Of a DNA stretch of 64,000 nt, positions 11,729 to 64,000 are shown in pieces. The stretch is from positions 186,001-250,000 of the forward strand of contig JAAVTG010000117.1 of assembly GCA_011947345.1 (NCBI GenBank), given 5' to 3'. The notes beneath the pieces were generated by a model that saw nothing but the letters and a program-made list of their open reading frames with translations, did not search any database and was not told the DNA's origin. The stretch comes from Phytophthora quininea (taxonomy: Eukaryota > Oomycota > Peronosporomycetes > Peronosporales > Peronosporaceae). The position numbers and the translations under genes were made by a program. Numbering within the stretch: position 1 is the first letter of the stretch; each line of letters begins with the position of its first letter.

Positions 11729-11766
11729 GGAAGTCTTGAAGCTGAAGGGGGCTTGATCTTGGTTTG

Positions 11767-11783: not shown

Positions 11784-11983
11784 CTTTAGGACAGTACGCT
11801 GCGCAGTTGGCTGGAGCCGTAGCAGTAGATACGAACGCCTCGACGTCATTAGATTGGTGGGCTGTTTGCTGGATGTAAGGTCTGTCAATTTGAGCATATA
11901 CTGTGGAAGAAGCTAAGCTTCTTCTACCAGTCCTTTGTGCATCAAATAATCCTAGTTTAGTGTGAAAAGCACGGAAGCGAAAG

Positions 11984-39670: not shown

Positions 39671-42600
39671 TTACACGCTGGGGAGTACGGCACTGTTGTG
39701 TAGCCGAGCGATCTGCTTCATTTGGTGCACAACCGGAAGAGCAGCCTCTATCGTTTTAGAGACCGCAGCAGCAACTCGAGACTCCTCAGCCTCAAAGCTG
39801 GCAACTTTCTCTGCTGCTGTGCTGAGTTTGGCCAGCGTCAATGGTTGAGTCAAGAAAATGGAGTCTCGGTGCTTCACTCGCGACAGGGCAACATACGCAA
39901 ATGCCACCGTCGGGATCGAATTGGTGTGGAACACGACCTTGTCCAATGTTAAGCCTTGGACTTTGTGGATGGTCATGCCGTATGCCAACCGCAATGGAAT
40001 TCCTCGACGAATAATCCTGAAGTCACTATTCTTTTGCACCAGCTGACCTCCCGTGGCATTACGGGAACAATATTCGGGACGTCTTTTAGGAAGGAAGGTC
40101 CGAGATACAGGTCAGTAATCTTGACCAGCACGATAGGCAGACCACTGCCTTCAAAAGATATTAGATCATAAACCACGCCGTTTGTTCCGTTACAGAGGCC
40201 TGCTGATTGTTCTAGGTAAGTCAAGGTGACAGGAGCACCAACACACAGCATTAGTTTCGTGGCGACTACTCTGTCTCTGTCACTTTGCGCAGTCTTAGCT
40301 TCGCTGATGAGAGCCGACACAGTTCCTGCTGGTATTTATCGTTGCTGATGAAGCCGTTTCTGCTGGACGTGGTGCATTGCATGAAGATGAACTATACTTG
40401 CGTCACTGGCGAGAAGGCTTTCTGTGTTAACTGCGTTGACGTTAATGTTTCGGTGAGCAATATGCTTAGCCTTCGAATACCACTTCGGCGTTGTCGTGCA
40501 GGTGGTACACCGCGAATTGAACAATTCGACATCAGCGGCTATTGGTTTACGGCAGCGTAGCCGTCGTAGTGCGTCAAACCACTCGGGATCACGCTTCCCA
40601 CGATTTTGACCTGTTAGCATGCAAACATTAGGTATTTGCTGCCATAACTCGCGACCCTTACGTTGCACTTCATTGTGGATTTTCTCCTGCGAGGTTGATA
40701 GTGCATAGGGGACGACGGGGTCTAGCTGTGCAGCGTCGCCAGTAAATATTATATCTCGTCCGCCAAAAGGTAAATGCTGATACTGGGGCCAGATCTCTCT
40801 TATCCTCTGGTCAACCCAGTAAAGCATCCCGCACGAAATGACACTAAACTCATCGATGATGACTAAATGTACATCCTTGTATCTTTGCTGAAGCTTGTTG
40901 AATTTATTCGGTCCATTCTTTTGCGTGGTAAGTGACGCACAAGGAGACGAAAATGCGGAGCGTGAGAATGACGAGAATCCAAGCGCCGAACACACCGTTT
41001 GACCCTTAATATTAAAAGCCGCTGTACCTTGATGAGCAAGTAGGAGAATTTGTTGGGAAAGCTTTTTCGGTCGCTCTCTAAAACACAACCTACATCTTTG
41101 ACTAAGTGACCTATTAGCCAACTCTTTCCCGAGCTGCCTTCCCCGTTAACTATCATCTGCAAAGGCGCACACGGTGTGCATTCAAGCTCCGCTTTCAACC
41201 TAGCTCTGGGCTGTTTCATTGCCATCGCAAACGGCAACCATTGCGACTCAGACATTGCACCTTTGACCCCAGAAGCATTTTCGTCGTCGTCACTGACGGG
41301 GTATCGATAGTAATGATGACCAGCAGGGTTCGCGTCACCGACACAGCTTCTCTCCTTCATCCAGGGTCTTACGTAGTCCTTTACAAAGGCCTTTGCTCTT
41401 TGGATGTCATCGCCTGGGTACGGATGCTTTGGTGACCATGTGGTTGCTCTCTTAGGATTGTCTAAAACCTCAGAGTTTCTTAGGTCCTCTTGCTCTTGCA
41501 AAGACACACAGCTATCTTCGACGAATACGTACTCAGAGGGGGATCTGCTCGCTACACGGGGAGGCATGTGCTTGCTTGAGTAAATCGAGAGCATGCTGAC
41601 GTGCTAGTTTTGCGTTCGACTCCTGAAGAAGCTCGCTGCCCAAATTCAGTTCCTGCTCGTGCAAAAATATTCTATACAATCGTCGTCGTCTTGAGGCAGA
41701 CCCTCGAGCGTTCGCCACGGCACGTGTAAGAATACTTCGGCGTAGCAAAAGTTTGGATTGCTTAAATCAGGTGCTATTCATGGAGACGCCCGTATAACAT
41801 GGGGTTTTGCTCGTCTTTTGCTGTAACCACGACCATCACTTCTTTCCCACAAGTCATTAACTGCGCTAAGCGAGTTAGCCTTATCTACCAAAGTGTACTC
41901 TTCGACGAACGACGCATAGCTCATAGAATCAAAGACGCTGTTCGATGGCCGGGCCATATACGCGCGCTCCAGAGGCTCTAGTCGGCCCTTCGTGTTACTC
42001 GCTCTGTAAGCAATTTCAGCAAGTTCTTGCGGCTCCCGAGTGTCGACTCGGTAGCAGCGCATATGGTGGCGAAGTGCCTTTACGCGCTCAACAGTCCTCG
42101 ACTTTCCATGCAAAGGTAGTTCTCTCAGCAGTATGAAATACGCTTCCTGGACGCTGATTTCCCGAATTGACAAAGCTGCATTCGCAACTTTTTCAAAATG
42201 GTGTGATGGGGCAAATTTATATCGCAGCGCTTCACTGCTGCAGCAATCACCTTTTAAACCGAGCAGTATCCGGTTCTGCTTTACTTACATACGCACCAGC
42301 GTATTCTGCTGCACCATAGGCATTTCCGATGAGCTGCAGGTCCATGTTTGCCGGTCAAGTCGATAGCAACGCCGGCGAGTAATTATTCGTGCTCGCAATC
42401 TCTCTTTTCAACCTAATTTTCGACAATGGAGAGCCATCAGACGCAAAGGATGCATCGATTTCGGTGTTAGCCTGAAGCTCCTTTGGATACCCAAAGCGGC
42501 ACTCATTTCCTTTTTCCTACAAGTTGCCCCGGGATAGCAAACGTGCTGCTGCACTCGATGCACTAACCTAGACAAATCACATTCCCAGTCGTCGCCGCCG

Positions 42601-44945
42601 TACTCAGGAGGACGAGATCCGAGAATATCTATATTTTCTGCGCTGCAAGGAGTACAAATCGAGCAATTGCAGCCAGCTAGTTGCGCCAAGGTTTTTGATA
42701 GGACTGATATGCTACGATCGACAAATTCTGCTAACTCACGCTTACCCTCGTCGGTTTTTGAGAGCTCTAGAACATCGGGGGCGTCTTTAATCCAAAGCAG
42801 CGCGTGAATGTGCGGGGAGCCCTCTGCTGAAACTCAACTCTCCAAAAATAATCGTCGATCTCGCCCAAAGGCTTCTCGCGGCCACACAACACATTATCGA
42901 AAAACATTGAAAGCGATGGTTAAAATAGCGCTGCAATATCAGGATTTTCATTGAGCAGCTTTCTCCTATCCTTCGACGACAAGCGTTTGCACTCGTCAAG
43001 AGTCAGATGGGGATTGCAAACTTTAAAAAGTCCGGCCAAATAGTGTCGGCTGCACTCAGCGTGAGAAAGAAGGTCGGCCAGCGAGTAGGTAGCACACGGC
43101 TTCCAATCATGCTCATCAAATCGTCTCTAACACTAGCCCACTACCTTTAACAACTTTGAAATACGGCTTCAATGATTCTAATAACCGCATAGCTGTGTCT
43201 GTGCTTTCCCGAGTAGAATCCGGCTGCGTCCTGGCATCGTTTTGTGGCTCTACATCGCTAACGCGTGTCACCAAGCCATCGATTTGTCGTCTATGTATTA
43301 AGTTAAGGCAGAAAAATAAAGTTGTTATGGATAACAAAGCGTCGGTCGTGCCACTTCACGAGGTGTGCACAGAATTCGACTAAATGATACTCGTGCATCC
43401 GATTTTCGCAGCTCTCTACTGGGTTTATGCCACATCCTCCATTAGGAAATAGAGTAGGAAAACAGTTCTGCATCAAAACCTTGGTTTTGTATTCATCAAT
43501 AGGTTCCGTACGACTCTGCAGCTCTTTCACAGGGTACTCAGATCCGCCACACGCCAGATCAGCAGCCTCTACTATCGTTTCTAGCTCACTCTGCTTGTCT
43601 TGATCGTCGCGTTCTAGCTCGAAGGTTTCGATTAAATTATCCATGGCATCTTCCTCGCTATCAAGACATGCTGAAGCTGAATTTGACGTATCTGCACTCT
43701 CTGCTTTGGAGTTGCTAGTTCTACAATCATGATGTGATTCATCGCAAGCAAGCAAGCACGTATTACACGTATGTGTGTCTCCAGAAGCTGTTGAGGCTGT
43801 AAACCCCATACTACTCTCGCGGCGGTGCTCACCGCCGATCCGCAAATTGCCTTCTTGCTCGGAGTTTGCTGCAAACGAGTGGCCTACATCATCGTCGCGC
43901 TCACGATTCAGCTGGTTTTCGTGAACACGAAGCTGCTGAGACTCTTCGTTGGTGATTGAGACGCTTGGAATGTCGCTCTCGATGTTGAACTGGTGCAAGG
44001 CAGCTAAATTCTCCTCCGAAATCCGCACATTTTTGTAGAGAGGATTGTTGTCGATAAGCCAACACAGTGCTTGTCTGAGCAAGTCGGGTCTAACCCTGAA
44101 AAACTTTGCCGATTCTGTTTCTTTCGTCTTCAGAAAGACGACCCCACACTTGTGCAGTGGCCTAGGTAGATTCAACACAATCTCCACAGCACTATTCCAG
44201 TAGTTAATAGAGTTACCGCGGGTGAACTCTTGACCGTCACAATACAGATTCACACAAGTTGTGAAAGAGACGCCTTATCCGATCAGCCGTGCCTCCATTC
44301 GATTCAACACGGCAAGTTCATGAGGAACGGGTACTAACCGGAAACCACTTGCCTTACAAAATTTCGGGATCTCTTTTTCCGTAGGGACTTTTCACATCGC
44401 CCACACAGCCAAACCATCGGCGCTTCGCTGCTTTCATCGTTCACTACAGCCTCCGCGATGACTTCACATTTTCCCTCCGAGTTACACAGTGGCCTAAAGA
44501 AGGCGACATCCGGGTCGTATTGATTGAACACCGCTTGTTCGGACTTCGTAAGTTCGCCGCAGCTACCACATATCCGAAGAAACGGGGAATCGATGGCAGC
44601 AAAAAATCTGGATTGCACAGTTGAGTAAGCACAGCGGACACACCACCCAGAAATGTAGCACACCTTTTGCATCTTCGCTACGGTCCCGAGTGGTGATGTT
44701 TTGAGAAACTTTACTTCTTTACTCCGCTTAGCGCTGCGAGGTTGTAGCTGAGCTACTGCATTCCGCTTCATCGTCTCTTCATGGCGTGCAAGACGCTTGA
44801 CTGTGCTGTCCGCCTCAGCAACCTCAACAGGAGCGGCATTAACCCGTCGCCTTTTTCGCTGTGCCCCACTGAGTTGTGCGTCTAAAGCCGCAAGAACCCG
44901 CCTTACAGCCTTGGTAGCCCGAGCATTCTGGCAGGGCTTCACCAT
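39671..44945 (-). mobile_element. Helitron II: Rep-helicase rolling-circle transposon, degenerate
   Basis: Read leftward from 44945, one RepHel protein is spread over several frames down to a stop at 39671. The order of domains is as in Helitron I: DUF6570-like, Rep with HUH and Tyr motifs, PIF1 helicase. Terminal TC and hairpin-CTRR sequences were not found, so the limits are those of the coding region. Confidence 0.75.
39671..44945 (-). pseudogene. Helitron II Rep-helicase gene, multiply frameshifted
   Basis: N-terminal part 44945-44334 has a basic region and Cys pairs (CGSCGE, CGRCEK). A DUF6570-like part follows with VPHELAVLNRMEARL, then an in-frame stop near 44281, and continues 44253-43303 with INYWNSAVEIVLNLPRPLHKCGVVF. 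The Rep motif PHIHALLWIKDAP, near 42795-42830, sits one base out of frame with VEFQQR. The tyrosine motif AEYAGAYVSK is near 42300. Helicase motifs are Walker A VNGEGSSGKSW (~41135), Walker B LVIIDEFSVIS (~40860), IIFTGDAAQLDPV (~40740), LAYGMTIHKVQGLTLD (motif V, ~39970) and FAYVALSRVKH (motif VI, ~39885). At least five frame changes are needed. It belongs to the same broad class as Helitron I but is clearly different in sequence. Confidence 0.75.
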
Positions 44946-47806: not shown

Positions 47807-48299
47807 GGCCTTCGTTGCCTAAATCAGTATATAAAGCAGTACTCTCCTCAGACTTTTTACGGGCGGTCTCGAACCCTGCCGACTTTTGACGCTATTAGAT
47901 CTAGCAATGGATTAGTCCCATTTAGTATGGGTACACTCCCAAATGCGGGCGGTTTCCTTGGTACATCATGGTACACTTCCGGATGGCTACAAAAATCTCG
48001 GCGCTAATTCTCATAGAAAAAGTGGCCTTTTATGCCAACTCTTGGTCCCACTAATATCAGGCGCCCTTACAGTCGGAATAAAAATAACCCTCGTTTTATT
48101 GGCTGTTAACTCATTCGCGCGAGGTGATCCACCTGTAGGGTCGCGGCTTTTTCCGTTTTAGCTTACGAACGCTTTCGCGCATACATGCTCTTATACAGAG
48201 GGAAAATTCCTTAGTTTTGGCCCCCAGGAGAGCGATTATATATTATAACCCTACCCTATTCTAAAAGTAAAAAGGGTGTAAAAAGAAGTAAATAGGAGT
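47807..48299. other. AT-rich spacer, no gene
   Basis: Stops in all frames. No terminal repeats or hairpins typical of a known element were recognised. Confidence 0.35.
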
Positions 48300-49083
48300 T
48301 GTCTGATTATAAGGGGCTTCGCCCCAATGACAAACTTCGGTCGTATGCACTGAGGCTGCTGGACGATGACACGGTCCCCACACTGATCGGGCACGAGACT
48401 GTCTTCGGGGCCAAGCAGGCAGTCCTTAAGCCGTATTTCGAGGCATACGTGGACTCGGCAGATAAGTTTCGGGTGGAAGCATATTGGGACCGACTGCTAT
48501 CGAGTTTTGCTGTCTGGAAGAAGCTGGGGTTGGACAAATTGGGCGCTGCTGGTCGGGAGGCCTCCAATCTGATGCCGACGTACAAACTGTACGCCCAGAA
48601 ATGGGATGGTTTGGCTATGAACTCTGTAGGCAGCAGTTTTCCAGTTCACAACGCTATCAGCAAGGGCGCTTCTGCAGACGAGATAGCGACGAGGATCAAG
48701 ATTTGGGTCGACGCAGGCAGGTCGGAAGCGTTTGCCAAGTACTCGCTGGGACCCGGCGACTTGAGTGGGGCGCAACTTAGAAGCCACAAAAACTACAAGT
48801 ACCTCGAGGAGTCTTTGCAAACGAAGAGGTTGGACGAAGTCGTGTGAGTGACTTGGTCGGAGGTGAATCTCAAGCCCTCCAGAGTTTGGTAAGCAGCACA
48901 AAGTATGTTGCCTTGGTAAGTCATTGATTTGGTTGCTACTGCTTTTAGTGGTGTTTGTTTTGTCTGTAACACAGTTTCTTGCTGAATTGGCCAAGCGTTT
49001 TGGCTCTCAAGGTCAACAGCTGATGACGTCCCTGGAGTCTTGGCGTACCAAGATGGTCGATTCCAAAACGTTTGTGCTGTTTA
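48300..49083 (+). pseudogene. C-terminal part of an RxLR-type (WY-like) effector, truncated at both ends
   Basis: There is no ATG, signal peptide, RxLR or EER: the frame opens at SDYKGLRPNDKLRSYALRLL. Helical repeats with conserved Trp/Tyr and Leu spacing (YWDRLLSSFAVWKKLGLDKL, RIKIWVDAGRSEAFAKYSLG) and a YKYLEESL segment match the style of WY-domain effectors. A stop occurs at 48845. After a frame change, or across an intron, FLAELAKRFGSQGQQL and SWRTKMVDSKTFVLF continue the pattern up to 49083, where the Helitron 5' end begins. The rest of the gene is not found on the other side of the Helitron. Confidence 0.6.
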
Positions 49084-49410
49084 TCTTAGACTACTAGAGA
49101 CTTGCTGTCTGTCCGTTTGTCTGTCGGTCGGTCGGTCCGTCGCTGAGTTTCGATGGACAAGATCCGGCGCTGCCATTGGCTGCCGAGCGCCAGCGACGGC
49201 GGCGCCCATTCGCCAAAAAGGATTTTAGCCAATCGCTGCCGAGCGGAGCGAAGGCGGCCCGAGAAAGTGGACCACACCAATTCGTACTTTACTGGAATAG
49301 TAGGGTGGTCCACACCAATAGTAGGGTGGTCCACACCAAACGTACTTAATGAAGAGGTCGATAGTAGCCCCCCCTCCTCCTCCCCTCAACCAACACCAAA
49401 GCCAAACGCG

Positions 49411-49716
49411 ATGGAGCGTGGGAACGTTACCTGCGCTCGCTGCTCTGCCGAGGTCACGCGTGCGCCGCTCGACCTCGACGGCCTGGGCAACCAGTGCCTC
49501 CGCTGCGTTTGCTGCGAGGAGCTCCTCGAGTGGGATGCCTTCGAGAGGCCGCGCGCCAGGAGCGCATCGCGGCGGTGTCGGGCGTGCGACGGCCAGCGCC
49601 GCTTCTGGCACAGCACCGCCGCCGAGCAGCCGCTGCCACGGTTAGACCGGCGGCAGGAGGCCATGGTCCTGGTGGCGTTAAATTTGTATTTCAATTTGTA
49701 TTATATTGTGTATTGA
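49411..49716 (+). CDS. Cys-rich small protein, probable captured gene fragment (Helitron copy 1)
   Basis: 101 codons starting MERGNVTCARCSAEVTRAPL. Cysteines are arranged C-x2-C ... C-x2-C-x-C-C ... C-x2-C, suggesting a small zinc-binding fold. Codon use is very GC-rich, unlike the adjoining helicase sequence. Related ORFs with the same start occur in the array units at 58919, 60958 and 62987 (minus strand); this one ends early in an AT-rich tail (FNLYYIVY) because of a deletion relative to them. Not recognised as any named family. Confidence 0.5.
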   Translation: MERGNVTCARCSAEVTRAPLDLDGLGNQCLRCVCCEELLEWDAFERPRARSASRRCRACDGQRRFWHSTAAEQPLPRLDRRQEAMVLVALNLYFNLYYIVY

Positions 49717-49768
49717 TTCAAAAACAGTGGTAGAACGGGCAACAGCGTAACGTTCGGATAGGACCGGG

Positions 49769-50721
49769 ATGACGATCGTGGTCGTTCCAGGTGATAGTCG
49801 TCCGTTGGCCCGCCCGCGCGAGAAGCCAAACGATGAGGATATCATCTCTTTCTCTGAATTTTTGCTTGCCGTTGGAGAGGGTCGGCACGAAAAACGTGCT
49901 GATCTCGGCAATGACTACATGAAGATTCCTGCTGATATACTGATCCCGAATCCTTCTGTAGAAGACAACGAGGACGAGGAAATAGCTCCAGGGGGCAATA
50001 CCAAGGGTATGACCCGCATCATTGACGCAATGTATGCCGACGTTGCGAATCCGGAGGTTGCAACGGATGAATATTTTGCCAGTCGGACCATTTTGACGAC
50101 TACGAACGAGACGGTACGGAGAATCAACGAGGCAGTCGCAGCTCGACTTCCGGAGACAGCGCGGGAGTATTTGTCGGTAGACTCGGTGGAGGATGATGAC
50201 GAAACGTTGTTCGAGCAGGAGTTCCTCCACTCGGTGAACATGAACGGGATTCCACCTCACAGACTACAGCTCAAGAAGGGCATCCCCATCATGATGATGA
50301 GAAATCTGAACCCGGATCTTGGACTGTGCAACGGGACGCGTCTGCGAATCGTCGACTTGAAGGACCACGTCATTAGAGCAACAATTACGACTGGAGAACG
50401 AACAGGCCAAGAAGTACTCATCCCGAGAATTATGTTCGTGAGCGACGACGACAGCTCCGATTTCCCCTTCCGGCTACGACGAAAGCAGTCCCCGTGCAAC
50501 CAGCATTCGCCATGACGATTAACAAGGCCCAAGGTCAGACGGTGTTAAACTTGGGGCTGTACTTGGCTTCCCCGCGCTTTTCCCATGGCCAGTTGTATGT
50601 GGCGTTGTCTCGCGTGACATCCCGAAGCAAGTTCAAGGCATTGATTGAGTATCCAGAGTTCGTAGACCCGGACGGAGGAGTGTACACGAGAAATATTGTG
50701 TACACGCAGATTTTTGATTAG
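49769..50721 (+). pseudogene. Terminal part of Helitron helicase (copy 1), frameshifted
   Basis: The frame from 49769 covers the region before helicase motif V (GMTRIIDAMYADVANPEVATDEYFASRTIL, LKKGIPIMMMRNLNPDLGLCNGTRL). One base is missing near 50497, and the downstream part then reads FAMTINKAQGQTVLNLGLYL (motif V) and HGQLYVALSRVTSR (motif VI), ending YTQIFD. It lacks the Rep domain and Walker motifs, so it cannot be active. Confidence 0.75.
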
Positions 50722-50948
50722 GAGTCGAGGTGTATTGCTAGGCTAGATGTAGTAGCTTGCCACTGCGAACTAGAACCTAGCTTTATGTTGGACAAATGGC
50801 ACTTGGCAATTTTCATGTATTTTATAAAACATTTTAAACGCCGGTACGTTTTAGATTGCACTACTGAGTAATTCGTGTGATAAGCTAAATCATCCCGCCG
50901 GAGCGTAGTGGAGGCGGGCGGTCCACAGCTGCATCCAACCATAACCCA

Positions 50949-50976
50949 CCGCCGCGTAGCGGCGGCGCTCGGCTAG
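50949..50976 (+). other. Helitron 3' terminal hairpin and CTAG end
   Basis: CCGCCGC (50949-50955), loop GTA, GCGGCGG (50959-50965), spacer CGCTCGG, then CTAG at 50973-50976. The same structure lies at the 3' end of every unit of the array on the minus strand, just right of 57190, 59253, 61286 and 63314. Confidence 0.85.
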
Positions 50977-53900
50977 TCTAGCCTAGAAATACACCTCAAC
51001 TCCTAATCGAAAATCTGCGTGTACACGATGTTTCTCGTGTACACTCCTCCGTCCGGGTCTACGAACTCTGGATACTCAATCAATGCCTTGAACTTGCTTC
51101 GAGAGGTCACGCGAGACAACGCCACATACAACTGGCCATGGGAAAAGCGCGGGAAGCCAAGTACAGCCCCAAGTTTAACACCGTCTGACCTTGGGCCTTG
51201 TTAATCGTCATGGCGAATGCTGGTTGCACGGGGACTGCTTTCGTCGTAGCCGGAAGGGGAAATCGGAGCTGTCGTCGTCGCTCACGAACATAATTCTCGG
51301 GATGAGTACTTCTTGGCCTGTTCGTTCTCCAGTCGTAATTGTTGCTCTAATGACGTGGTCCTTCAAGTCGACGATTCGCAGACGCGTCCCGTTGCACAGT
51401 CCAAGATCCGGGTTCAGATTTCTCATCATCATGATGGGGATGCCCTTCTTGAGCTGTAGTCTGTGAGGTGGAATCCCGTTCATGTTCACCGAGTGGAGGA
51501 ACTCCTGCTCGAACAACGTTTCGTCATCATCCTCCACCGAGTCTACCGACAAATACTCCCGCGCTGTCTCCGGAAGTCGAGCTGCGACTGCCTCGTTGAT
51601 TCTCCGTACCGTCTCGTTCGTAGTCGTCAAAATGGTCCGACTGGCAAAATATTCATCCGTTGCAACCTCCGGATTCGCAACGTCGGCATACATTGCGTCA
51701 ATGATGCGGGTCATACCCCTTGCCCCCTGGAGCTATTTCCTCGTCCTCGTTGTCTTCTACAGAAGGATTCGGGATCAGTATATCAGCTGGAATCTTCATG
51801 TAGTCATTGCCGAGATCAGCACGTTTTCGTGCCGACCCTCTCCAACAGCAAGCAAAAATTCAGAGAAAGAGAGGATATCCTCGTCGCTTTCTCCTGTCCC
51901 CTCGCTCCCAATGCGCATATTCTGTGTTAACCGAACCTGCAAAAGTGTCTCCACAGAGGCGATTCCTTTATAAACGCGTTGATCGTTTCTGCAGGCGTGC
52001 CTCTCTTCACGACAGGAAGGATCTGGCGGAAATCTCCTGAGAGCACAAAAACCTTTCCGCCGAAAGGCTCCTGGAGTTATCCATAATGTCCCGTAGCGTT
52101 CGGTCGACAGCCTCAAACGCGTGGCGATGCGTCATCGGAGCTTCATCCCAAATGACCAAACTGGTCTGCTGGATAAGCTTGCGCAGGTGCGACTGTTTGA
52201 AAATCGAACACGTAGAATCCTTGTCCAGTTTCAGCGGAATTTTGAAAGTAGAATGCGCCGTACGCCCGCCCATGAGAAGCAGAGACGCGATTCCACTGGA
52301 TGCAACAGCAAGTGCAATCTTCCCATCCAGACGCACCCTGGCCAAAATGTGTCGAAGTAGCGTAGACTTTCCCGTTCCACCAGGCCCATCAACAAAGAAA
52401 AGCTTTTGTGAAATTTCCCGCGTGGATGACCTGCCCCGTCGTTACGCGAAGCGCTGGCCGTCGATACCTCATGTCCTGACTCGGCTTCGACGGCTTGTAT
52501 GATCTGGTCGAATACGGCTTTCTGCCCTTCGTTGAGTTTGGCCTCGTCGCGAACAATAGCCTCCAATGTCCTTGTGCTGTAGCTTTTCTCGCGGCGTATG
52601 AGATTGTTGTCGAGAAGGGACTCTCGAACCAAACTCGGGAAATCACTCAACTGCGGAAGGTCAAAATCGGTCACAGCATACCCACTCACCTTTAGCAAAT
52701 CGTTCACGCTTTTTAGCGTCTCAAACATCACCACAGTCTCTCGTGTAGACTCGGGAGATCCCGGTGCTTATGCGCTATGTCCCGATTCAATTCCTCATAG
52801 AATTGGTCCCACAACCCACGGACGTCGCTTGGCATCGAGTACACTAACAGTGTACTGAAGAGCTGTCGAAGTTGGTATGGCATCTGAAAACTTGCAGCCT
52901 CTGTCATGCATGCAACCCACTCTTGGTCGTTGTCAAGATATCCCAATTGTAACGCTGCATCCCTAAACGTGGGACATACGACGCCGTTAACTGTCCGTAT
53001 ATCCTCGAACGATGTAGGTCCTCTTCGATTGCAGAGCAGTATTCGGAGGAAAAACTTCTCGCCATCCCGGGGGACACATGAACCAATCTTCCGAGTGCCG
53101 CTCTATACTGCTTACGCCGAACCCACTGCTTCTCGTTCCAAACGAACTCCTTGGGGATGTCTTTGTACAGCATCGTCTTCGCGATCTGGTTCTCTGGGGC
53201 ATCGCTCTGACATAATTCAAAAACCTCGTGAGGTGCGTGTGCGCGCTTCTTTCCAGAATCGCGGTGGGATCTTCCCTTACGTCGAAATGAATCATATGCT
53301 CTCTCTCCAAATGCACGGTAAGTTGCACGACAGAGTGAGTTTTCCCTTGAACCGCGTAATTCAGAAGCCGGATGCACACCTCCACAGGGAAATATACCGA
53401 GCATCTAAATATCGCAGGATTTCGTTTGGCTCCTCGCTCAGGCGTTGCTCAGACGGACGACCATTGCCCGAATCGACGACGACGATTGTCATGACGGTCC
53501 TATCTGATCCCTTGTACACGTACTTGTAAATATACTTGACCGCGGTGATTCCAGTACAAACCTCTACGTTGATGTGGCAATCGTACTTCTGAGAGAAGTA
53601 CGGGTTATAGGGACCACCCACTTGTTTGCGGTGGCATTATCATACTTCCGCCCTTTGAACTTTAGAACTCCCGCACTCCGCTCGCGGCGTTTATACTCTG
53701 GATATCCATTCACATCCGCCTGAGTCGCCGTATTCAACTTTTCGGAAAACCTTTGGAGCACTTCCCGTCTTTCATGCAAGCACAATTGGGATTCGCGGCG
53801 CCACACGGGCCGTGCATCATACACGTCATCACGGTCTTGTAAAGATCAGGGTTGGTCGCCTCGTCGGGTATTTCGGCGGACACCATCGCATCAATCACTT

Positions 53901-56900
53901 CTCGGCTTCGCGGCTTATCCTGATCATCCAGAATAATCAATATGTGTGCATGCGGCAGACCTCGCTTCTGAAACTCCACAACGTAAATCCGAGCACGAAC
54001 ACGGCCCAACACACCGGCGTCCAAATCTGCAAGTAATTCCCGCAATTTCTGGTTCCAGACACGCGCAACGATATCGGGACGGTCCTGTGCGGTCTGTCCT
54101 TCCGACAGCTCACTTGTAATTTCACTCCACTCTGGGTTGCAAGTCATCGTCATGAAAATATCTGGCTTTCCGTACTCGGCCACAATTGTCATAGAGTCCT
54201 TGTAGCATTTGTACATGTATCGGGGGCTACCAGTATAGGTCGCTGGTAGAATCCGCCGCAAGCCATACTGGTTCAGGAAATGTTTTTGCTGACGGCCCCC
54301 AGAACCCGCGTGGCTCTCCTCATCACGCATCTCAACCGCACTCTCGTTGATGTAGGCGTCTTCCACACCTCTGTACAGGTCCGCGCGGATCTCTTTCTGG
54401 TTATTCGCAACCCACCTTAAACTATCCTGCTCCACTTTAGCTCGTTGATCCACACACCATTGCTGAAAAAGCCGACCACCGAGATGTAGCACTGATCCAT
54501 CACCCGGCTTAGGGAACAAACGAAAAGCCGTGAACTCTCGAAGAGACATCTTGGGCTCCTTCCGACGTGTCTGGCCGTTTGCATAGGTATCGGTGAAAGA
54601 CCATCCTAACTCTCCGCTTGGAAAAAGCAACGGGTACTGGAGTGGGTCGTACATCGGGTTCGTCTCGAACAAACGGAGGAGACGCCGCTGCTTCGTGTAG
54701 ATGATAAGGTCTCTGTGTTTGTCGAGGTTTCCGTCCTCCACCAGTGTCGCCCCAACCTCAGACACGGTTGGTAAATTTGTTGTGCCAGGTCGCCTGCGAT
54801 CCGCGTACAGGTTAAACTGGAGATCCACGATCTCTTTCCCGTCCGCTACCTCTTTCCGAAGGAGCTCTCCAAAATTCAAGAACTGCTGCCCGAAAGGATT
54901 AACTGTTGCCATCATGTGCTCAAGGGTTCCCAGTTTTCCCGGTCCAAGTGAGCAAAAATGCCTTCGCGACGCGCTGCCCGTTTATGCATATCCGGATCTA
55001 CGATGTAAATCTGTGCGAACTTCGCAGGTGCTGGTTGGCTTGTGTCGAAGTAGTCGATCGACGGGAGTAGAGAACCGAGATAGTGACCCATGGCACCTTG
55101 GATCCTGTACGTGTAAACACCGCGCTGCCCCTGCACCGAAGTATCCTCTCTCACGCGTTGAATGGCGGAGCTATCACTTCTAGACGCCCCGATGGACGTG
55201 AAAGCAAACACCTGGTTGTACGCACGGATGTGTTCTCTGAACTCCTGCTCTCGATAAAAGTCGTGGAGGTAATTGGGAGCTGCTTTCAATCCCGGTAGCT
55301 GTACCTTTCCCTTCAGACAACATGAGAAAGCAGATTCACCCGGCCATTTCCAGGCCCCACACCAAGCACACTGTATCTGATCTGGAAGCTTGTGCCGACC
55401 GTCTTCAACATTTTTCCCAGACACCTTGGACTTGCAGAAGCTCTCGTGGTTACACAGTGCGTGACCGCGTCGAGGGCAACGGTTTCTAACCCGCCTGTTC
55501 GCGTTTTCGGCCTCGCGTCGCTCCGCACGCTGTGCCTCCGTTTGGGCGTCATGCCTCTGTCGACGCCGCAATGTATCACGTTCCAGAGCTGCCTCCCGTT
55601 CGTGGTTTCCTTGGAGTATACGCCGAACTTCATGATCGATGCGATTACGTTCACGTTCCGCCTCACGCTCGGCTTCTGTCAGGAGCGATCGTCGAGATTC
55701 TTGGCTTGCTCGCGCTTCCTCGTGGCGACTTGTACGTTCCTCTGCAGTCTCGTCATTGCGCCTAGCCTCCTGATAGACGCGATCACGCTCTCGAACTTCC
55801 TCCTGCGCCTCCTCGGTTCGATTTGCACGCCGAGCTTCTTGGTACAATCTGTCATGTTCTCTCCTGGCCTGAACCTGGTCTTCTTTCTTCCTGGCTCGTC
55901 GAATCCGCTGCAGCTCTCGATTCCGTGTCCGAGTACGTTCTTTCTGAGATGCGGTCATGTTGGCTCTCCGTTTCCGCGCGTTCTCGGCTTTCTTCGCACG
56001 GATCCTCTCCGCTTCGTCTGGTTCAGGTATTACCGCACTTGGTGCAGGAGTTGCCACCGTCACGGGGCAATTTCTCCCACAGACTCGGCGTAACGTCGTT
56101 GATGTTCTGCTGGGTCATCTTCCTCCTGCTTACCTTCTTGATCGCCACTTATGTCGACAGCTGGTGCTTGGACCTCCCGAGTTGTGATGTGGTCCGCGTT
56201 CAACGTTAACGCTTCCAGAGCCTTGTTGAGATTACATCGCCTGCTACTTCGTCTTCGTTGGCGCTTCCGCTTGTCCGCACGATCCTCAGGTCCGCATGGA
56301 GTCGCGTTAACGCGTTCGTTCTCCCGCAACTCTTTTTCTATGTCCTCGCGCGTCCGCTTGCGCTTGGGTCGCGCCATGGCGTCCTGTGGACACGAAACAG
56401 AGTCACACAGCGCGTTAGACATTACGTCTAAGTACGTCCACATTTTTATATGCAGGTTGGAGTCTTGATCTCGGATCTTGGGTCTTGTGCGTCGTTTTTG
56501 TTGAGTGTGTTTGCATCTGCGTACTGCCTGGCGTGCCAGCTCCCTTCGAAATAAGCCGCAAACATATCCCGCCTACAACATACCCAAAAATGGGTACGGA
56601 GTGGTTTTTGCTGCACCATAAATGGCACCGTCGGCAAGTCCAGGTTTGAGCGCCCGGGCAGTACTGAGAGTCTTCGTGCGATATCCGTTGCACATCGCTT
56701 TTCAGCGGAAGCTCGACATCAACAGGTCGAAAGCTTCGGGTAAATTTGGCCAATAGGCAGGCGCCATAGTGTGCTCTCACTCAGAGTGGGTGGTGGGCCG
56801 CAGCCCCTTAGCACGACACCCCCAGCGCAAGCGCTGGGCCATATACTTCACCCTAACTTCCTCCCAGGAGTCTAGGACTATCTGTGCGTGGTGGCTTCGT

Positions 56901-57189
56901 CTCCACTTAAGTCTAACATGCATACATGCAACGCACCTTTCCGCCCGCGCGCGCTTCTTCTTTTGAATTTGGGGGCAAACGTCCCAGTAAAGTACGAATT
57001 GGTGTGGTCCACTTTCTCGGGCCGCCTTCGCTCCGCTCGGCAGCGATTGGCTGAAACTCTTTTGGCGAATGGGCGCCGCCGTCGCTGGCGCTCGGCAGCC
57101 AATGGCAGCGCCGGATCTTGTCCATCGAAACTCGGCGACGGACCGACAGACAAACGGACAGACAGCAAGTCTCTTGTAGTAGTCTAAGA
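50977..57189 (-). mobile_element. Large Rep-helicase Helitron of the same family, 3' end missing
   Basis: The 5' end TCTTAGACTACTACAAGAG starts at 57189 on the minus strand. The first ~200 bases match the small copies. The interior carries the whole RepHel coding region, and the sequence runs past the stop codon (51003) to 50977, where it abuts the 3' end of the plus-strand copy. About 230 bases of 3' terminus, including the hairpin, are absent. It is the presumptive autonomous form from which the small units derive. Confidence 0.8.
51003..56377 (-). pseudogene. Helitron III Rep-helicase gene, nearly full length with frameshifts
   Basis: Starts at MARPKRKRTRED (56377). A long Arg/Glu-rich coiled N-terminus follows (to ~55400), then CAWCGAWKWPGE and the N-terminal Helitron region to 54912. 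After a one-base loss the frame runs 54915-53734 through CNPEWSEI and the Rep motif FQKRGLPHAHILIIL (HAH at ~53945-53955). The catalytic tyrosines are in VKYIYKYVYKGSD (~53510-53540). After further shifts come NWDILTTTKS, the helicase with Walker A DGPGGTGKSTLL (~52365-52395), VIWDEAPM (Walker B), FVLSGDFRQILPVV, and finally motifs V and VI, with the stop at 51003. About eight frame changes make it a pseudogene, but all catalytic motifs are still readable. Confidence 0.8.
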
Positions 57190-57429
57190 CTAGCCGAGCG
57201 CCGCCGCTACGCGGCGGTGGGTTATGGTTGGATGCAGCTGTGTGGACCGCCCGCCTCCGCTACGCTCCAGCGGGATGATGTAGCTTTTCACACGAACTAC
57301 TAAGTAGTTTAATCTAAAACGTACAGGTGTATAAAATGTTTCATGAAAATTGCCATTTGTCCAAATAAAGCTAGGTTCTAGTTCGCAGTGGCAAGCTACT
57401 ACATCTAGCCTAGCAATACACCTCGACTC

Positions 57430-58213
57430 CTAATCAAAAATCTGCGTGTACACAATATTTCTCGTGTACACTCCTCCGTCCGGGTCTACGATCTCTGGAT
57501 ACTCAATCAATGCCTTGAACTTGCTTCGGGATGTCACGCGAGACAACGCCACATACAACTGGCCATGCGAAAAGCACGGGAAGCCAAGTACAGCCCCAAG
57601 TTTAACACCGTCTGACCTTGGGCCTTGTTAATCGTCATGGCGAATGCTGGTTGCACGGGGACTGCTTTCGTCGTAGCCGGAAGGGGAAATCGGAGTTGTC
57701 GTCGTCGCTCACGAACATAATTCTCGGGATGAGTACTTCTTGGCCTGTTCGTTCTCCAGTCATAATTGTTGCTCTAATGACGTGGTCCTTCAAGTCGACG
57801 ATTCGCAGACGCGTTCCGTTGCACAGTCCAAGATCCGGGTTCAGATTTCTCATCATCATGATGGGGATGCCCTTCTTGAGCTGTAGTCTGTGAGGTGGAA
57901 TCCCGTTCATGTTCACCGAGTGGAGGAACTCCTGCTCGAACAACGTTCCGTCATCATCCTCCACCGAGTCTACCGACAAATACTCCCGCGCTGTCTCCGG
58001 AAGTCGAGCTGCGACTGCCTCGTTGATTCTCCGTACCGTCTCGTTCGTAGTCGTCAAAATGGTCCGACTGGCAAAATATTCATCCGTTGCAACCTCCGGA
58101 TTCGCAACGTCGGCATACATTGCGTCAATGATGCGGGTCATACCCCTTGGTATTGCCCCTGGAGAAATTTCCTCGTCCTCGTCGTCTTCTACAGGAGGAT
58201 CTGGGATCAGCAT
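57430..58213 (-). pseudogene. Helicase tail in unit 2, frameshifted
   Basis: Open from MLIPDPPVEDDEDEE to just before the motif V region, where a base is missing in the run encoding Gln-Phe-Pro. Motifs V and VI follow in another frame to the stop at 57430. Confidence 0.7.
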
Positions 58214-58514
58214 ATCAGCTGGAACCTTGGTGTAGTCATTGCCAAGGCCAGCACGTTTTCGTGCCGACCCTCTCCAACGGCAAGCACAAAATCAGAGAAG
58301 GAGAAGATATCCTCATCGTTTGGTTCCTCGCGCGGGCGGGCCAACGGACGACTATCACCTGGAACGACCACGATCGTCATCACGGTCCTATCCGAACTTT
58401 ACGCTGTTGCCCGTTTCACCACTGGTTTTGTATCAATACATTTGCATCAATACACATATAACACAAATTTAACCGACTTGGCCGAAATGAACACAAATGT
58501 ATTGGCGGAGTCTA

Positions 58515-58919
58515 TTAACAGCCAATGTCCTGTCCCTGGCGGTAGCGACGGCGACGCGCGGTCTGTCGCTGGCGGACTCGGCGGCGTCGATGACGGTGGC
58601 GAGCTTCGCGACGTGGTAGTGGCGGCGGCAGCGGCGGCGGGCCGATGGTGACCGCCACCAGGGCCATGGTCTCCTGTCGCCGGTCCAACCGTGGCAGCGG
58701 CTGCTCGGCGGCGGTGCTGTGCCAGAAGCGGCGCTGGCCGTCGCACGCCCGACACCGCCGCGATGCGCTCCTGGCGCGTGGCCTCTCGAAGGCATCCCAC
58801 TCGAGGAGCTCCTCGCAGCAAACGCAGCGGAGGCACTGGTTGCCAAGGCCGTCGAGGTCGAGCGGCGCACGCGTGACCTCGGCAGAGCAGCGAGCGCAGG
58901 TAACGTTCCCACGCTCCAT
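58515..58919 (-). CDS. Cys-rich ORF in unit 2
   Basis: 134 codons from MERGNVTCARC. It keeps all Cys pairs of the plus-strand copy and extends into a Pro- and Arg-rich low-complexity tail (RRRYRQGQDIGC). The start is the shared ATG; a frame to 58982 would add 21 residues. Confidence 0.45.
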   Translation of the reverse strand: MERGNVTCARCSAEVTRAPLDLDGLGNQCLRCVCCEELLEWDAFERPRARSASRRCRACDGQRRFWHSTAAEQPLPRLDRRQETMALVAVTIGPPPLPPPLPRREARHRHRRRRVRQRQTARRRRYRQGQDIGC

Positions 58920-59499
58920 CGCGTTTGGCTTTGGTGTTGGTTGAGGGGAGGAGGAGGGGGGGGCTACTATCGACCTCTTCATTAAGTACGTTTGGTGTGG
59001 ACCACCCTACTATTGGTGTGGACCACCCTACTATTCCAGTAAAGTACGAATTGGTGTGGTCCACGTCTCGGGCCGCCTTCGCTCCGCTCGGCAGCGATTG
59101 GCCGAAACTCTTTTGGCGAATGGGCGCCGCCGTCGCTGGCGCTCGGCAGCCAATGGCAGCGCCGGATCTTGTCCATCGAAACTCGGCGACGGACCGACCG
59201 ACAGACTGACAGACAAACGGACAGACAGCAAGTCTCTAGTAGTAGTCTAAGACTAGCCGAGCGCCGCCGCTACGCGGCGGTGGGTTATGGTTGGATGCAG
59301 CTGTGTGGACCGCCCGCCTCCGCTTCGCTCCGGCGGGGTGATTTAGCTTTTACACGAACTACTAAGTAGTGCAATCTAAAACATACAGGCGTATAAAATG
59401 TTTCGTGAAAATTGCCAAGTGCCATTTGTCCAACATAAAGCTAGGTTCTAGTTCGCAGTGGCAAGCTACTACATCTAGCCTAGCAATGCACCTCGACTC

Positions 59500-60285
59500 C
59501 TAATCAAAAATCTGCGTGTACACGATGTTTCTCGTGTACACTCCTCCGTCCGGGTCTACGAACTCTGGATACTCAATCAATGCCTTGAACTTGCTTCGGG
59601 ATGTCACGCGAGACAACGCCACATACAACTGGCCATGGGAAAAGCGCGGGGAAGCCAAGTACAGCCCCAAGTTTAACACCGTCTGACCTTGGGCCTTGTT
59701 AATCGTCATGGCGAATGCTGGTTGCACGGGGAACTGCTTTCGTCGTAGCCGGAAGGGGAAATCGGAGCTGTCGTCGTCGCTCACGAACATAATTCTCGGG
59801 ATGAGTACTTCTTGGCCTGTTCGTTCTCCAGTCATAATTGTTGCTCTAATGACGTGGTCCTTCAAGTCGACGATTCGCAGACGCGTCCCGTTGCACAGTC
59901 CAAGATCCGGGTTCAGATTTCTCATCATCATGATGGGGATGCCCTTCTTGAGCAGTAGTCTGTGAGGTGGAATCCCGTTCATGTTCACCGAGTGGAGGAA
60001 CTCCTGCTCGAAAAACGTTCCGTCATCATCCTCCACCGAGTCCACCGACAAATACTCCCGCGCTGTCTCCGGAAGTCGAGCTGCGACTGCCTCGTTGATT
60101 CTCCGTACCGTCTCGTTCGTAGTCGTCAAAATGGTCCGACTGGCAAAATATTCATCCGTTGCAACCTCCGGATTCGCAACGTCGGCATACATTGCGTCAA
60201 TGATGCGGGTCATACCCCTTGGTATTGCCCCTGGAGCTATTTCCTCGTCCTCGTTGTCTTCTACAGGAGGATCCGGGATCAGCAT
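59500..60285 (-). CDS. Helicase tail in unit 3, uninterrupted 261-codon ORF
   Basis: The only copy in the window in which this part of the PIF1-like helicase is open from MLIPDPPVEDNEDEE through LRRKQFPVQPAFAMTINKAQGQT (motif V) and HGQLYVALSRVTSR (motif VI) to the stop at 59500. Without the Walker motifs it cannot bind or hydrolyse ATP by itself. Confidence 0.65.
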   Translation of the reverse strand: MLIPDPPVEDNEDEEIAPGAIPRGMTRIIDAMYADVANPEVATDEYFASRTILTTTNETVRRINEAVAARLPETAREYLSVDSVEDDDGTFFEQEFLHSVNMNGIPPHRLLLKKGIPIMMMRNLNPDLGLCNGTRLRIVDLKDHVIRATIMTGERTGQEVLIPRIMFVSDDDSSDFPFRLRRKQFPVQPAFAMTINKAQGQTVLNLGLYLASPRFSHGQLYVALSRVTSRSKFKALIEYPEFVDPDGGVYTRNIVYTQIFD

Positions 60286-60559
60286 ATCAGCTGGAATCTT
60301 GATGCAGTCATTGCCAAGGTCAGCACGTTTTCGTGCCGACCCTCTCCAACAGCAAGCAAAAAATCAGAGAAGGAGAGGATATCCTCGTCGTTTGGCTTCT
60401 CGCGCGGGCGGGCCAACGGACGACTATCACCTGGAACGACCACGATCGTCATCACGGTCCTATCCGAACGTTACGCTGTTGCCCGTTTTACCAGTTTTTA
60501 CATCGATACACAATATGACACAAATTTAACCCAATTGAAAATGGGTGTATTGATGTTGG

Positions 60560-60958
60560 TTATTTACAGCCAATGTCCTGTCCCTGGCGGTAGCGACGGC
60601 GACGCGCGGTCTGTCGCTGGCGGCGTCGACGACGGTGGCGAGCTTCGCGAGGTGGTAGTGGCGGCGGCAGCGGCGGTGGGCCGATGGTGACCGCCACCAG
60701 GGCCATGGTCTCCTGCCGCCGGTCCAACCGTGGCAGCGGCTGCTCGGCGGCGGTGCTGTGCCAGAAGCGGCGCTGGCCGTCGCACGCCCGACACCGCCGC
60801 GATGCGCTCCTGGCGCGTGGCCTCTCGAAGGCATCCCACTCGAGGAGCTCCTCGCAGCAAACGCAGCGGAGGCACTGGTTGCCAAGGCCGTCGAGGTCGA
60901 GCGGCGCACGCGTGACCTCGGCAGAGCAGCGAGCGCAGGTAACGTTCCCACGCTCCAT
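60560..60958 (-). CDS. Cys-rich ORF in unit 3
   Basis: 132 codons from MERGNVTCARC, almost identical to unit 2 apart from a two-residue deletion in the Arg-rich tail. It ends QGQDIGCK. Confidence 0.45.
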   Translation of the reverse strand: MERGNVTCARCSAEVTRAPLDLDGLGNQCLRCVCCEELLEWDAFERPRARSASRRCRACDGQRRFWHSTAAEQPLPRLDRRQETMALVAVTIGPPPLPPPLPPREARHRRRRRQRQTARRRRYRQGQDIGCK

Positions 60959-61532
60959 CGCGTTTGGCTTTGGTGTTGGTTGAGGGGAGGAGGAGGGGGG
61001 CTACTATCGACCTCTTCATTAAGTACGTTTGGTGTGGACCACCCTACTATTGGTGTGGACCACCCTACTATTCCAGTAAAGTACGAATTGGTGTGGTCCA
61101 CGTCTCGGGCCGCCTTCGCTCCGCTCGGCAGCGATTGGCCGAAACTCTTTTGGCGAATGGGCGCCGCCGTCGCTGGCGCTCGGCAGCCAATGGCAGCGCC
61201 GGATCTTGTCCATCGAAACTCGGCGACGGACCGACCGACTGACAGACAAACGGACAGACAGCAAGTCTCTAGTAGTAGTCTAAGACTAGCCGAGCGCCGC
61301 CGCTACGCGGCGGTGGGTTATGGTTGGATGCAGCTGTGTGGACTGCCCGCCTCTGCTACGCTCCGGCGGGATGATTTAGCTTTTACACGAACTACTAAGT
61401 AGTGCAATCTAAATAATACAGGCGTATGAAATGTTTCATGAAAGATGCCAAGTGGCATTTGTCCAACATAAAGCTAGGTTCTAGTTCGCAGTGGCAAGCT
61501 ACTACATCTAGCCTAGAAATGCAACTCGGCTC

Positions 61533-62315
61533 CTAATCGAAAATCTGCGTGTACACGATGTTTCTCGTGTACACTCCTCCGTCCGGGTCTACGAACTCTG
61601 GATACTCAATCAACGCCTTCAACTTGCTTCGAGAGGTCACGCGAGACAACGCCACATACAACTGGCCATGGGAAAGCACGGGAAGCCAAGTACAACACCA
61701 AGTTTAACACCGTCTGACCTTGGGCCTTGTTAATCGTCATGGCGAATGCTGGTTGCAGGGGAACTGCTTTCGTCGTAGCCGGAAGGGGAAATCGGAGCTG
61801 TCGTCGTCGCTCACGAACATAATTCTCGGGATGAGTGCTTCTTGGCCTGTTCGTTCTCCAGTCATAATTGTTGCTCTAATGACGTGGTCCTTCAAGTCGA
61901 CGATTCGTAGACGCGTTCCGTTGCACAGTCCAAGATCCGGGTTCAGATTTCTCATCATCATGATGGGGATGCCCTTCTCGAGCAGTAGTCTGTGAGGTGG
62001 AATCCCGTTCATGTTCACCGAGTGGAGGAACTCCTGCTCGAAAAACGTTCCGTCATCATCCTCCACCGAGTCCACCGACAAACACTCCCGCGCTGTCTCC
62101 GGAAGTCGAGCTGCGACTGCCTCGTTGATTCTCCGTACCGTCTCGTTCGTAGTCGTCAAAATGGTCCGACTGGCAAAATATTCATCCGTTGCAACCTCCG
62201 GATTCGCAACGTCGGCATACATTGCGTCAATGATGCGGGTCATACCCCTTGGTATTGCCCCTGGAGCTATTTCCTCGTCCTCGTTGTCTTCTACAGGAGG
62301 ATTCGGGATCAGCAT
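61533..62315 (-). pseudogene. Helicase tail in unit 4, frameshifted
   Basis: Open from MLIPNPPVEDNEDEE to the same Gln-Phe-Pro site, where a different base (a G) is missing compared with unit 2. Motifs V and VI follow out of frame to the stop at 61533. Confidence 0.7.
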
Positions 62316-62555
62316 ATCAGCTGGAATCTTGATGCAGTCATTGCCAAGGTCAGCACGTTTTCGTGCCGACCCTCTCCAACAGCAAGCAAAAAATCAGAGA
62401 AGGAGAGGATATCCTCGTCGTTTGGCTTCTCGCGCGGGCGGGCCAACGGACGACTATCACCTGGAACGACCACGATCGTCATCACGGTCCTATCCGAACG
62501 TTACGCTGTTGCCCGTTTTACCAGTTTTTACATCGATACACAATATGACACAAAT

Positions 62556-62987
62556 TTAACCCAATTGAAAATGGGTGTATTGATGTTGGTTATTTACAGC
62601 CAATGTGCTTCCCTGGCGGTAGCGACGGCGACGCGCGGTCTGTCGCTGGCGGCGTCGACGACGGTGGCGAGCTTCGCGAGGTGGTAGTGGCGGCGGCAGC
62701 GGCGGCGGGCCGATGGTGACCGCCACCAGGGCCATGGTCTCCTGCCGCCGGTCCAACCGTGGCAGCGGCTGCTCGGCGGCGGTGCTGTGCCAGAAGCGGC
62801 GCTGGCCGTCGCACGCCCGACACCGCCGCGATGCGCTCCTGGCGCGTGGCCTCTCGAAGGCATCCCACTCGAGGAGCTCCTCGCAGCAAACGCAGCGGAG
62901 GCACTGGTTGCCAAGGCCGTCGAGGTCGAGCGGCGCACGCGTGACCTCGGCAGAGCAGCGAGCGCAGGTAACGTTCCCACGCTCCAT
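62556..62987 (-). CDS. Cys-rich ORF in unit 4, altered C-terminus
   Basis: 143 codons from MERGNVTCARC. A small deletion near 62608 shifts the tail so that it reads through to TLAVNNQHQYTHFQLG instead of ending at GQDIGC. Confidence 0.45.
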   Translation of the reverse strand: MERGNVTCARCSAEVTRAPLDLDGLGNQCLRCVCCEELLEWDAFERPRARSASRRCRACDGQRRFWHSTAAEQPLPRLDRRQETMALVAVTIGPPPLPPPLPPREARHRRRRRQRQTARRRRYRQGSTLAVNNQHQYTHFQLG

Positions 62988-63313
62988 CGCGTTTGGCTTT
63001 GGTGTTGGTTGAGGGGAGGAGGAGGGGGCTACTATCGACCTCTTCATTAAGTACGTTTGGTGTGGACCACCCTACTATTGGTGTGGACCACCCTACTATT
63101 CCAGTAAAGTACGAATTGGTGTGGTCCACGTCTCGGGCCGCCTTCGCTCCGCTCGGCAGCGATTGGCCGAAACTCTTTTGGCGAATGGGCGCCGCCGTCG
63201 CTGGCGCTCGGCAGCCAATGGCAGCGCCGGATCTTGTCCATCGAAACTCGGCGACGGACCGACCGACTGACAGACAAACGGACAGACAGCAAGTCTCTAG
63301 TAGTAGTCTAAGA

Positions 63314-64000
63314 CTAGCCGAGCGCCGCCGCTACGCGGCGGTGGGTTATGGTTGGATGCAGCTGTGGACTGCCCGCCTCTGCTACGCTCCGGCGGGATGA
63401 TTTAGCTTTTTACACGAACTACTAAGTAGTGCAATCTAAATAATACAGGCGTATGAAATGTTTCATGAAAGCTGCCAAGTGGCATTTGTCCAACATAAAG
63501 CTAGGTTCTAGTTCGCAGTGGCAAGCTACTACATCTAGCCTAGAAATGCAACTCGGCTCCTAATCGAAAATCTGCGTGTACACGATGTTTCTCGTGTACA
63601 CTCCTCCGTCCGGGTCTACGAACTCTGGATACTCAATCAACGCCTTCAACTTGCTTCGAGAGGTCACGCGAGACAACGCCACATACAACTGGCCATGGGG
63701 AAAGCACGGGAAGCCAAGTACAACACCAAGTTTAACACCGTCTGACCTTGGGCCTTGTTAATCGTCATGGCGAATGCTGGTTGCAGGGGAACTGCTTTCG
63801 TCGTAGCCGGAAGGGGAAATCGGAGCTGTCGTCGTCGCTCACGAACATAATTCTCGGGATGAGTGCTTCTTGGCCTGTTCGTTCTCCAGTCATAATTGTT
63901 GCTCTAATGACGTGGTCCTTCAAGTCGACGATTCGTAGACGCGTTCCATTGCACAGTCCAAGATCCGGGTTCAGATTTCTCATCATCATGATGGGGATGC
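63314..64000 (-). mobile_element. Tandem Helitron unit 5, cut by the window edge
   Basis: Begins with the hairpin-CTAG end at 63314 and continues into the helicase tail without a break. The array may extend beyond the window. Confidence 0.8.
63560..64000 (-). pseudogene. Helicase tail in unit 5, partial
   Basis: Contains motif VI, motif V and part of the upstream segment (MMMRNLNPDLGLCNGTRL). It has the same missing G as unit 4. The 5' part lies outside the window. Confidence 0.65.

Follow-up and report, generated by a model that had tools for sequence, protein, structure and literature searches.

Helitrons that stand head to tail are already known. Tandem copies are reported from bat, Drosophila, rice and maize in the parts of two papers that concern them (PMC5876387, PMC5148889), and the first of these cites head-to-tail Helitrons as support for rolling-circle transposition. 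Here we describe a Helitron array in the oomycete Phytophthora quininea. It runs out of one end of a 64,000-nucleotide stretch, which we call the window (C61:186001-250000, where C61 is contig JAAVTG010000117.1; the assembly has 87.2 Mb in 993 contigs). What is of interest is the evidence for polar stacking. We think it fairly likely that arrays of this family were built mainly by the insertion of new elements at the exact A|TC position where a resident copy begins (the bar marks the insertion point), with homologous exchange then reshuffling the units.

The likeness to the bat, Drosophila, rice and maize cases, as those parts present them, lies in the head-to-tail joins and tandem rows. Unlike those cases, the units here are heterogeneous (a Rep-helicase copy is among them, as are non-autonomous types that differ from each other), and their order of arrival appears to be 5'-ward. 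Centromeric arrays of truncated Helitrons, many with multiple 5' ends and a single 3' end (Xiong et al. 2016, as summarized in PMC12628747), are also rows of Helitron 5' ends, and one array in this genome, on C20 (units of 952-978 bp), resembles them. In contrast to what that summary describes, the units of the window are complete and have 3' ends of their own. For three tandem Helitrons in Metarhizium acridum, the account in PMC5148889 sets repeated 5'-end insertion against rolling-circle replication of a circle and leaves the choice open. We weigh the same two explanations, but with many arrays and a discrete unit at three loci instead of one case. Transposable element (TE) dimers in Drosophila melanogaster have been linked to insertion-site preference during active transposition (McGurk and Barbash, as cited in PMC12628747). 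Site preference is the common point, but in our case that site would be the 5' end of the element itself. Among the papers listed in our literature searches (titles and beginnings of abstracts, with few subscription papers), we found no report of 5'-ward Helitron stacking. Because this genome has dozens of joins, a haplotype series, joins between unlike types, and one unit at three loci, counting can separate stacking from concatemers. If stacking is true, then the order of an array dates the arrivals, and tandem joins alone are no evidence for concatemer replication.

The window array and its family

Read from 5' (C61:255441) to 3', the order of the array is a6, a5, a4, a3, a2, a1, L. Its parts are as follows, with window positions unless C61 is given.

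49084..50747, plus strand: body of U0, an older, opposed small copy that holds the array; its 5' end is at A|TC
50748..50976, plus strand: 3' tail of 229 bp (hairpin, CTAG), which we read as the tail of L, probably flipped between inverted repeats
50977..57189, minus strand: L, the large Rep-helicase copy minus its tail (Helitron_like_N in 53734-54981, Pif1 2B in 51208-51732); the frame is split into several open reading frames (ORFs)
57186..57193, minus strand: L/a1 junction, CTAG|TCTT; equivalents at 59252/59253, 61285/61286 and 63313/63314
57190..59252, minus strand: a1, small unit of 2063 bp with both ends
59253..61285, minus strand: a2, small unit of 2033 bp with both ends
61286..63313, minus strand: a3, small unit of 2028 bp, a mosaic of a2 and a4 by unit comparison
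63314..64000, minus strand: 3' part of a4, a small unit that continues to C61:251356
Outside the window, to C61:253398, minus strand: a5, small unit between a4 and a6
Outside the window, to C61:255441, minus strand: a6, which is unit X, the 5'-most of the array
C61:255442-255666, opposed to the array: U0's own tail, followed by TCAAGAC

All four CTAG|TC junctions are perfect to the base; the minus strand reads ...CCGCCGCGTAGCGGCGGCGCTCGGCTAG|TCTTAGACTACTAC... there. An earlier, sequence-only reading of the window had placed them at 57189/57190, 59252/59253, 61285/61286 and 63313/63314, with units of 2063, 2033 and 2028 bp; both the positions (read on the minus strand) and the lengths are exact. 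There is no host DNA between the units, as the 3' CTAG of one abuts the 5' TC of the next. The array outruns the window by the remainder of a4 plus all of a5 and a6, and in full it has one broken large Rep-helicase copy and six 2.03-kb units (2028-2063 bp each). That a Rep-helicase copy is part of the array was confirmed by domain matches (Helitron_like_N, E=1.5e-58; Pif1 2B, E=3.6e-22). The five best matches to the Rep domain of L are in Phytophthora fragariae, P. rubi and P. cactorum, at 58-62% identity. We also considered a captured gene in the small unit and dropped it: the ORF at 58515-59006 has no Pfam match, and 0 of 448 candidates were found at E<=0.001.

The array is nested antisense within U0, which the sequence-only reading had missed. 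The 5' flank of a6 is the antisense sequence of U0 and not host DNA (...GCAAGCTACTACA|TC). The 229-bp tail at 50748-50976 is flanked by two opposed copies of a sequence ending GGCTAGA, and near it are two 568-nt arms, 100% complementary, at 50005-50572 and 51151-51718. On the simplest reading, the founder of the array entered U0 at CTACTACA|TCTAGCC, and the tail of L would have been flipped later via recombination between the arms. The perfect inverted repeat adjoins less perfect arms (about 96%), and the perfect 568-nt tract is likely a recent conversion or crossover.

We compared the family with canonical Helitron1, with Helitron2/Helentron, with Xiong-type arrays, and with rolling-circle concatemers. 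Canonical Helitrons have 5' TC and 3' CTRR ends (according to the description of termini in PMC13286980). The canonical ends proposed for this family are borne out: TC...CTAG is found in the window units and in all 12 single copies for which both ends were located, and these 12 read A|TC...CTAG|T, which corresponds to insertion between A and T without target duplication. (The exact end is missing in some degenerate copies, such as S_C591 and C815_a1.) The 3' hairpin has a 7-bp stem and a 3-nt loop and lies 11 nt before the end, within the canonical 10-15 bases; folding three 41-nt pieces of identical sequence gave an energy z of only -1.59. The autonomous copy, as judged from its sequence, combines a predicted Rep (HUH) with a Pif1-type helicase, with the frame broken in L. 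By eye, the 12 single copies have only A|T in common and no longer target motif. For whole arrays, we searched for the empty sites of C403 and C312 and found none, so no empty allele speaks for the entry of an array at a single site. Helitron2/Helentron elements insert between T and T. Here the target is A|T, and by eye we saw no inverted match between the two ends, in contrast to the asymmetric terminal inverted repeats that PMC5148889 gives for Helitron2/Helentron in its comparison of the groups. The C61 array is not of the truncated Xiong type, as each complete unit has both ends. Nor do its neighbours look like copies of one template, as in a rolling-circle concatemer; the type B arrays (see below) may differ in this.

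Three non-autonomous types have the same ends as L:

Type A, 2.03 kb: positions ~217-932 are absent from L
Type B, 2.74 kb: L 1-192 followed by L from 4008 to its end
Type C, about 2.67 kb: A 1-937 followed by L from 4714 to its end

Joins between L and type A units occur in C61, C692 and C513, and by coordinates in C815. The sequence-only reading took the join of large and small elements as a possible record of the birth of a non-autonomous family. This no longer holds: the small family is also dispersed, with at least 12 single copies; positions ~217-932 are unmatched in L; and large-small joins recur at these other loci.

Junction counts, unit X and unit divergence

The junction CGGCTAG|TCTTAGACTA (17 bases, <=1 mismatch) occurs at 61 places in the assembly, 39 of them exact and 22 with one mismatch. 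At <=2 mismatches, there are 77 places versus 10 in the reversed control; of the 16 that have two mismatches, several belong to other repeats. These counts are not due to chance. A strict 5'-end pattern occurs 134 times (69 after A, 65 after G, and none after C or T), versus 0 in the reversed control. A looser pattern, which admits 12 more entries, finds 80 ends after A and 66 after G (controls 0). The sequence-only reading had suggested counting tandem junctions against single insertions, and the 5' ends that bear on this are 66 G-preceded and 80 A-preceded.

A caveat is that the 66 G-preceded ends are spread over 25 contigs, and some of these represent haplotypes or close copies of a single locus (C374/C514/C813, C61/C647 and, by unit similarity, C852/C853). 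Also, not all 66 are proven joins: among the 30 junction loci fetched, C629 is unlike all the others compared in its upstream sequence. At this locus (C629:44999-45015), a type B unit follows CGGCTAG, and the upstream 1.5 kb matches none of the compared loci; it is perhaps the 3' end of another Helitron family, or host DNA. Among the 80 A-preceded ends, ten are the repeats of the truncated C20 array, and some others are inside other copies (e.g., C61:255441). The C20 array (C20:14307-24038) has ten head-to-tail truncated 5' parts, each cut at an internal GTGCTGA|TC, and its 5' neighbour ends in CTGG. The surveys of copies scored the best 32 of 235 and the best 32 of 204 candidates, the latter without C853 and the C61 query copy.

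One unit, X, stands at three loci (C61_a6, C374_3 and C853_5) with 0 substitutions over 2040 aligned bases and only 5 and 7 gap columns, mostly single-base indels. Its 5' flanks at these loci are unrelated (ungapped identity 0.12-0.28). Its 3' neighbours differ as well, at 101 of 2034 positions (C61_a5 and C374_2), 73 of 1881 (C853_4 and C374_2), and 103 of 1867 (C61_a5 and C853_4), or 39-55/kb. X-type units are the 5'-most in C61 (one of six small units), C374 (two of three), and C853 (the two 5'-most of at least 7); X itself is first at the 5' end in C61 and C374 and second in C853. A 24-mer from the 3' region of X (<=1 mismatch; control 0) occurs 12 times, every one in an array: once in C61, twice each in C374, C514, C853 and C312, and three times in C391. 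(C312 and C391 are 2.7-kb arrays.) The X copy in C647, which carries changes within the 24-mer, is also 5'-most, and C647 repeats the right boundary of C61 with X as the first unit (99.1% over 1234 bp).

A series of haplotypes points the same way along the array. The same 3' host flank is found in C374 and C514 (99.93%) and C813 (99.13%); C514 and C813 break off where their contigs end, and C813 may be either allelic or paralogous. With units numbered from the 3' end, the differences from C374 in unit 1 are 8 of 2034 positions in C514 and 19 of 2029 in C813. For unit 2, these differences are 5 of 2035 and 75 of 2036, and for unit 3, 24 of 1663 and 91 of 1996. Relative to the divergence of their own flanks, unit 1 appears to be common to all three, unit 2 to C374 and C514 only, and unit 3 to none.

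Some joins unite unlike types. B is 5'-most, followed by C, in C401 and C455; C is 5'-most, followed by B, in C312. (We therefore dropped the idea of strictly homotypic arrays, in which A, B and C never mix.) Because C401 and C455 have a common 5' flank (150 bp, 100%), these joins represent two loci, not three. At both, the 5'-most unit is of another type than its neighbour, and a join of unlike types would not be made by a single-template concatemer or by unequal crossing-over. C455 also has a 3' flank in common with C327 (99.3%), yet the 5' flank of C327 differs; this could reflect either a recombinant chromosome or a misassembly.

Between adjacent small units, the median difference is 37.7 substitutions/kb (16 pairs, from six type A arrays or array parts). 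The median is 41.6 for non-adjacent units of one array (22 pairs), 44.6 for units of different arrays (193 pairs), and 56.6 for single copies (66 pairs). (These comparisons are without C514, C852, C692, U0 and S_C591, and C813 counts as its own array despite the 3' flank it has in common with C374.) In a tree made with a quick method (41 rows, without S_C591 and the partial units C852_0p, C852_3p and C514_3p; 10 of 38 inner branches starred), the units of C61 fall in four lineages:

C61_a1: clade with single copy S_C8, support 97, starred
C61 a2-a4: clade with U0, support 91
C61 a5: clade with C374_1 and its haplotypes, support 94
C61 a6: X clade, support 100, starred

Lineages cross array boundaries, in that supported clades unite units of different arrays or single copies. 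For instance, C853_2 groups with the single copy S_C552 (support 100).

How the arrays may have grown

We propose the following steps for a canonical Helitron family that consists of a large Rep-helicase element and non-autonomous types. The target is A|T, and a resident that has inserted still shows A|T at the 5' boundary (A|TC). The transposase may recognise this 5' end and nick it, as at the start of a new transposition, and an incoming element would be attached at this point with the same orientation, which would give A|TC(new)...CTAG|TC(old) with no spacer. As A|T would again be left at the new 5' end, the process could be repeated, and repeats would give a row with the oldest unit at the 3' end and the youngest at the 5' end. 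In the window, the founder would have inserted in the older, opposed U0, with growth at the 5' end thereafter. Homologous exchange (unequal crossing-over, conversion, and inversion between opposed copies) would reshuffle the units and in some arrays multiply them, and we attribute to it the mosaic a3, the inversion of the tail, and the near-identical pairs. Exchange between units had been proposed from the window sequence, and a3 agrees: its 5' two thirds are nearest its 3'-side neighbour, a2, and its last third is nearest its 5'-side neighbour, a4.

Resident 5' ends make up ~146 of ~5 million AT sites (the AT count is extrapolated from the window). Random insertion at AT alone would almost never give such a share of joins, so a preference is needed. 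Helitron transposition has been proposed to start at the left end (in the model outlined in PMC5876387), and a transposase nick at the left end of a resident would supply this preference. We give about even chances to the idea that the left end of a resident is a preferred, base-precise landing site of this kind for arriving Helitrons that have the same ends, with arrays that are time-ordered and grow only or mostly 5'.

The perfect, spacer-free joins could also arise from a concatemer of several units, made when rolling-circle replication failed to stop at the 3' end and then inserted in a single event. The sequence-only reading saw the window array as a direct product of this kind, and tandem Helitrons are so interpreted where PMC5876387 treats them. 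Concatemers would also fit the homogeneous arrays (C403, C391, C627 and C20) and the near-identical C374_2 and C374_3. But the neighbours in C61 are 16-45 substitutions/kb apart, nearly as diverged as units of different arrays, and belong to four lineages; and X, substitution-free at three loci, has a different neighbour at every one. For these reasons we reject the insertion of the entire window array as a concatemer. Given also the joins of large with small elements, and of types B and C in C401/C455 and C312, concatemers seem improbable as the main source of arrays. Another way to a perfect tandem dimer would be homologous recombination of a resident with a circular intermediate whose ends are precisely joined. 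Circles with joined ends have been reported for Helraiser (PMC5876387) and, by polymerase chain reaction, for FoHeli1 (PMC5148889), in the passages on circles, and such recombination would account both for perfect joins and for joins between types with both ends in common. However, the crossover would usually lie inside the unit and yield hybrids, whereas all three loci hold an intact, full-length X, whose 3' neighbour in C853 already departs from it at base 9. This route is unlikely, in our judgement.

Alternatively, unequal crossing-over and conversion, also between loci, might have multiplied an initial tandem pair and made its units alike. Such exchange would explain the a2/a4 mosaic, the homogeneous type B arrays, the common flanks of C401/C455 (5') and C455/C327 (3'), and the inverted tail, but it leaves the first pair and the joins of unlike types unexplained, as well as a unit X that is exactly unit-long, with boundaries at unit ends, at three loci. 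As the main process we doubt it strongly. Misjoined or duplicated repeats in the assembly are conceivable where arrays reach contig ends (C514, C692, C813, C852 and C647) or where a contig may be a chimera (C455). But the divergence between neighbours in C61 would make them distinguishable by long reads, C647 repeats the right boundary of C61 with X first, and the G-preceded ends come from 25 contigs. An artefact is very unlikely.

Several observations weigh against stacking at the 5' end. C853_6, which is 13/kb from X, stands 5' of X. The polarity was noticed post hoc and rests on about five loci, and exchange of units between arrays by recombination, or assembly error, is possible; the flank pattern of C401, C455 and C327 adds to the doubts about the assembly. 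No A-B or A-C join was found among the 23 of 25 junction loci whose two sides could each be classed as A or not A (C22 was too short, and C629 was unmatched). The one empty site, that of S_C8, shows no duplication, but it reads A|G where the filled site reads A|T. Array labels cluster on the tree (16 changes versus a mean of 24.7 when shuffled, with 0 of 200 as low); the similarity is local and comes in part from near-copies and haplotypes. Some units of one array are nearly alike (C374_2 and C374_3 differ by only 1.5/kb, and C853_1 and C853_3 by 3.0/kb), and the type B arrays are locally homogeneous: 3-15/kb in C403, 8-24/kb in C391, and 6-7/kb in C627, versus 9-49/kb between arrays. So is the 10-copy C20 array (0-13 substitutions/kb). 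The type B arrays and the C20 array look locally amplified, by unequal crossing-over or by concatemers.

Other features of the window

The window also holds two other broken Helitron-like elements, at 29014-35552 (plus strand) and 40336-44274 (minus strand). Both have DUF6570 and PIF1, and a Helitron_like_N match was found in the first alone. Inside the first, at 34172-34356, are two copies of a 93-bp tandem repeat. The ORFs at 11108-11785 (minus strand) and 48296-48847 (plus strand) may be relatives of oomycete secreted effectors.

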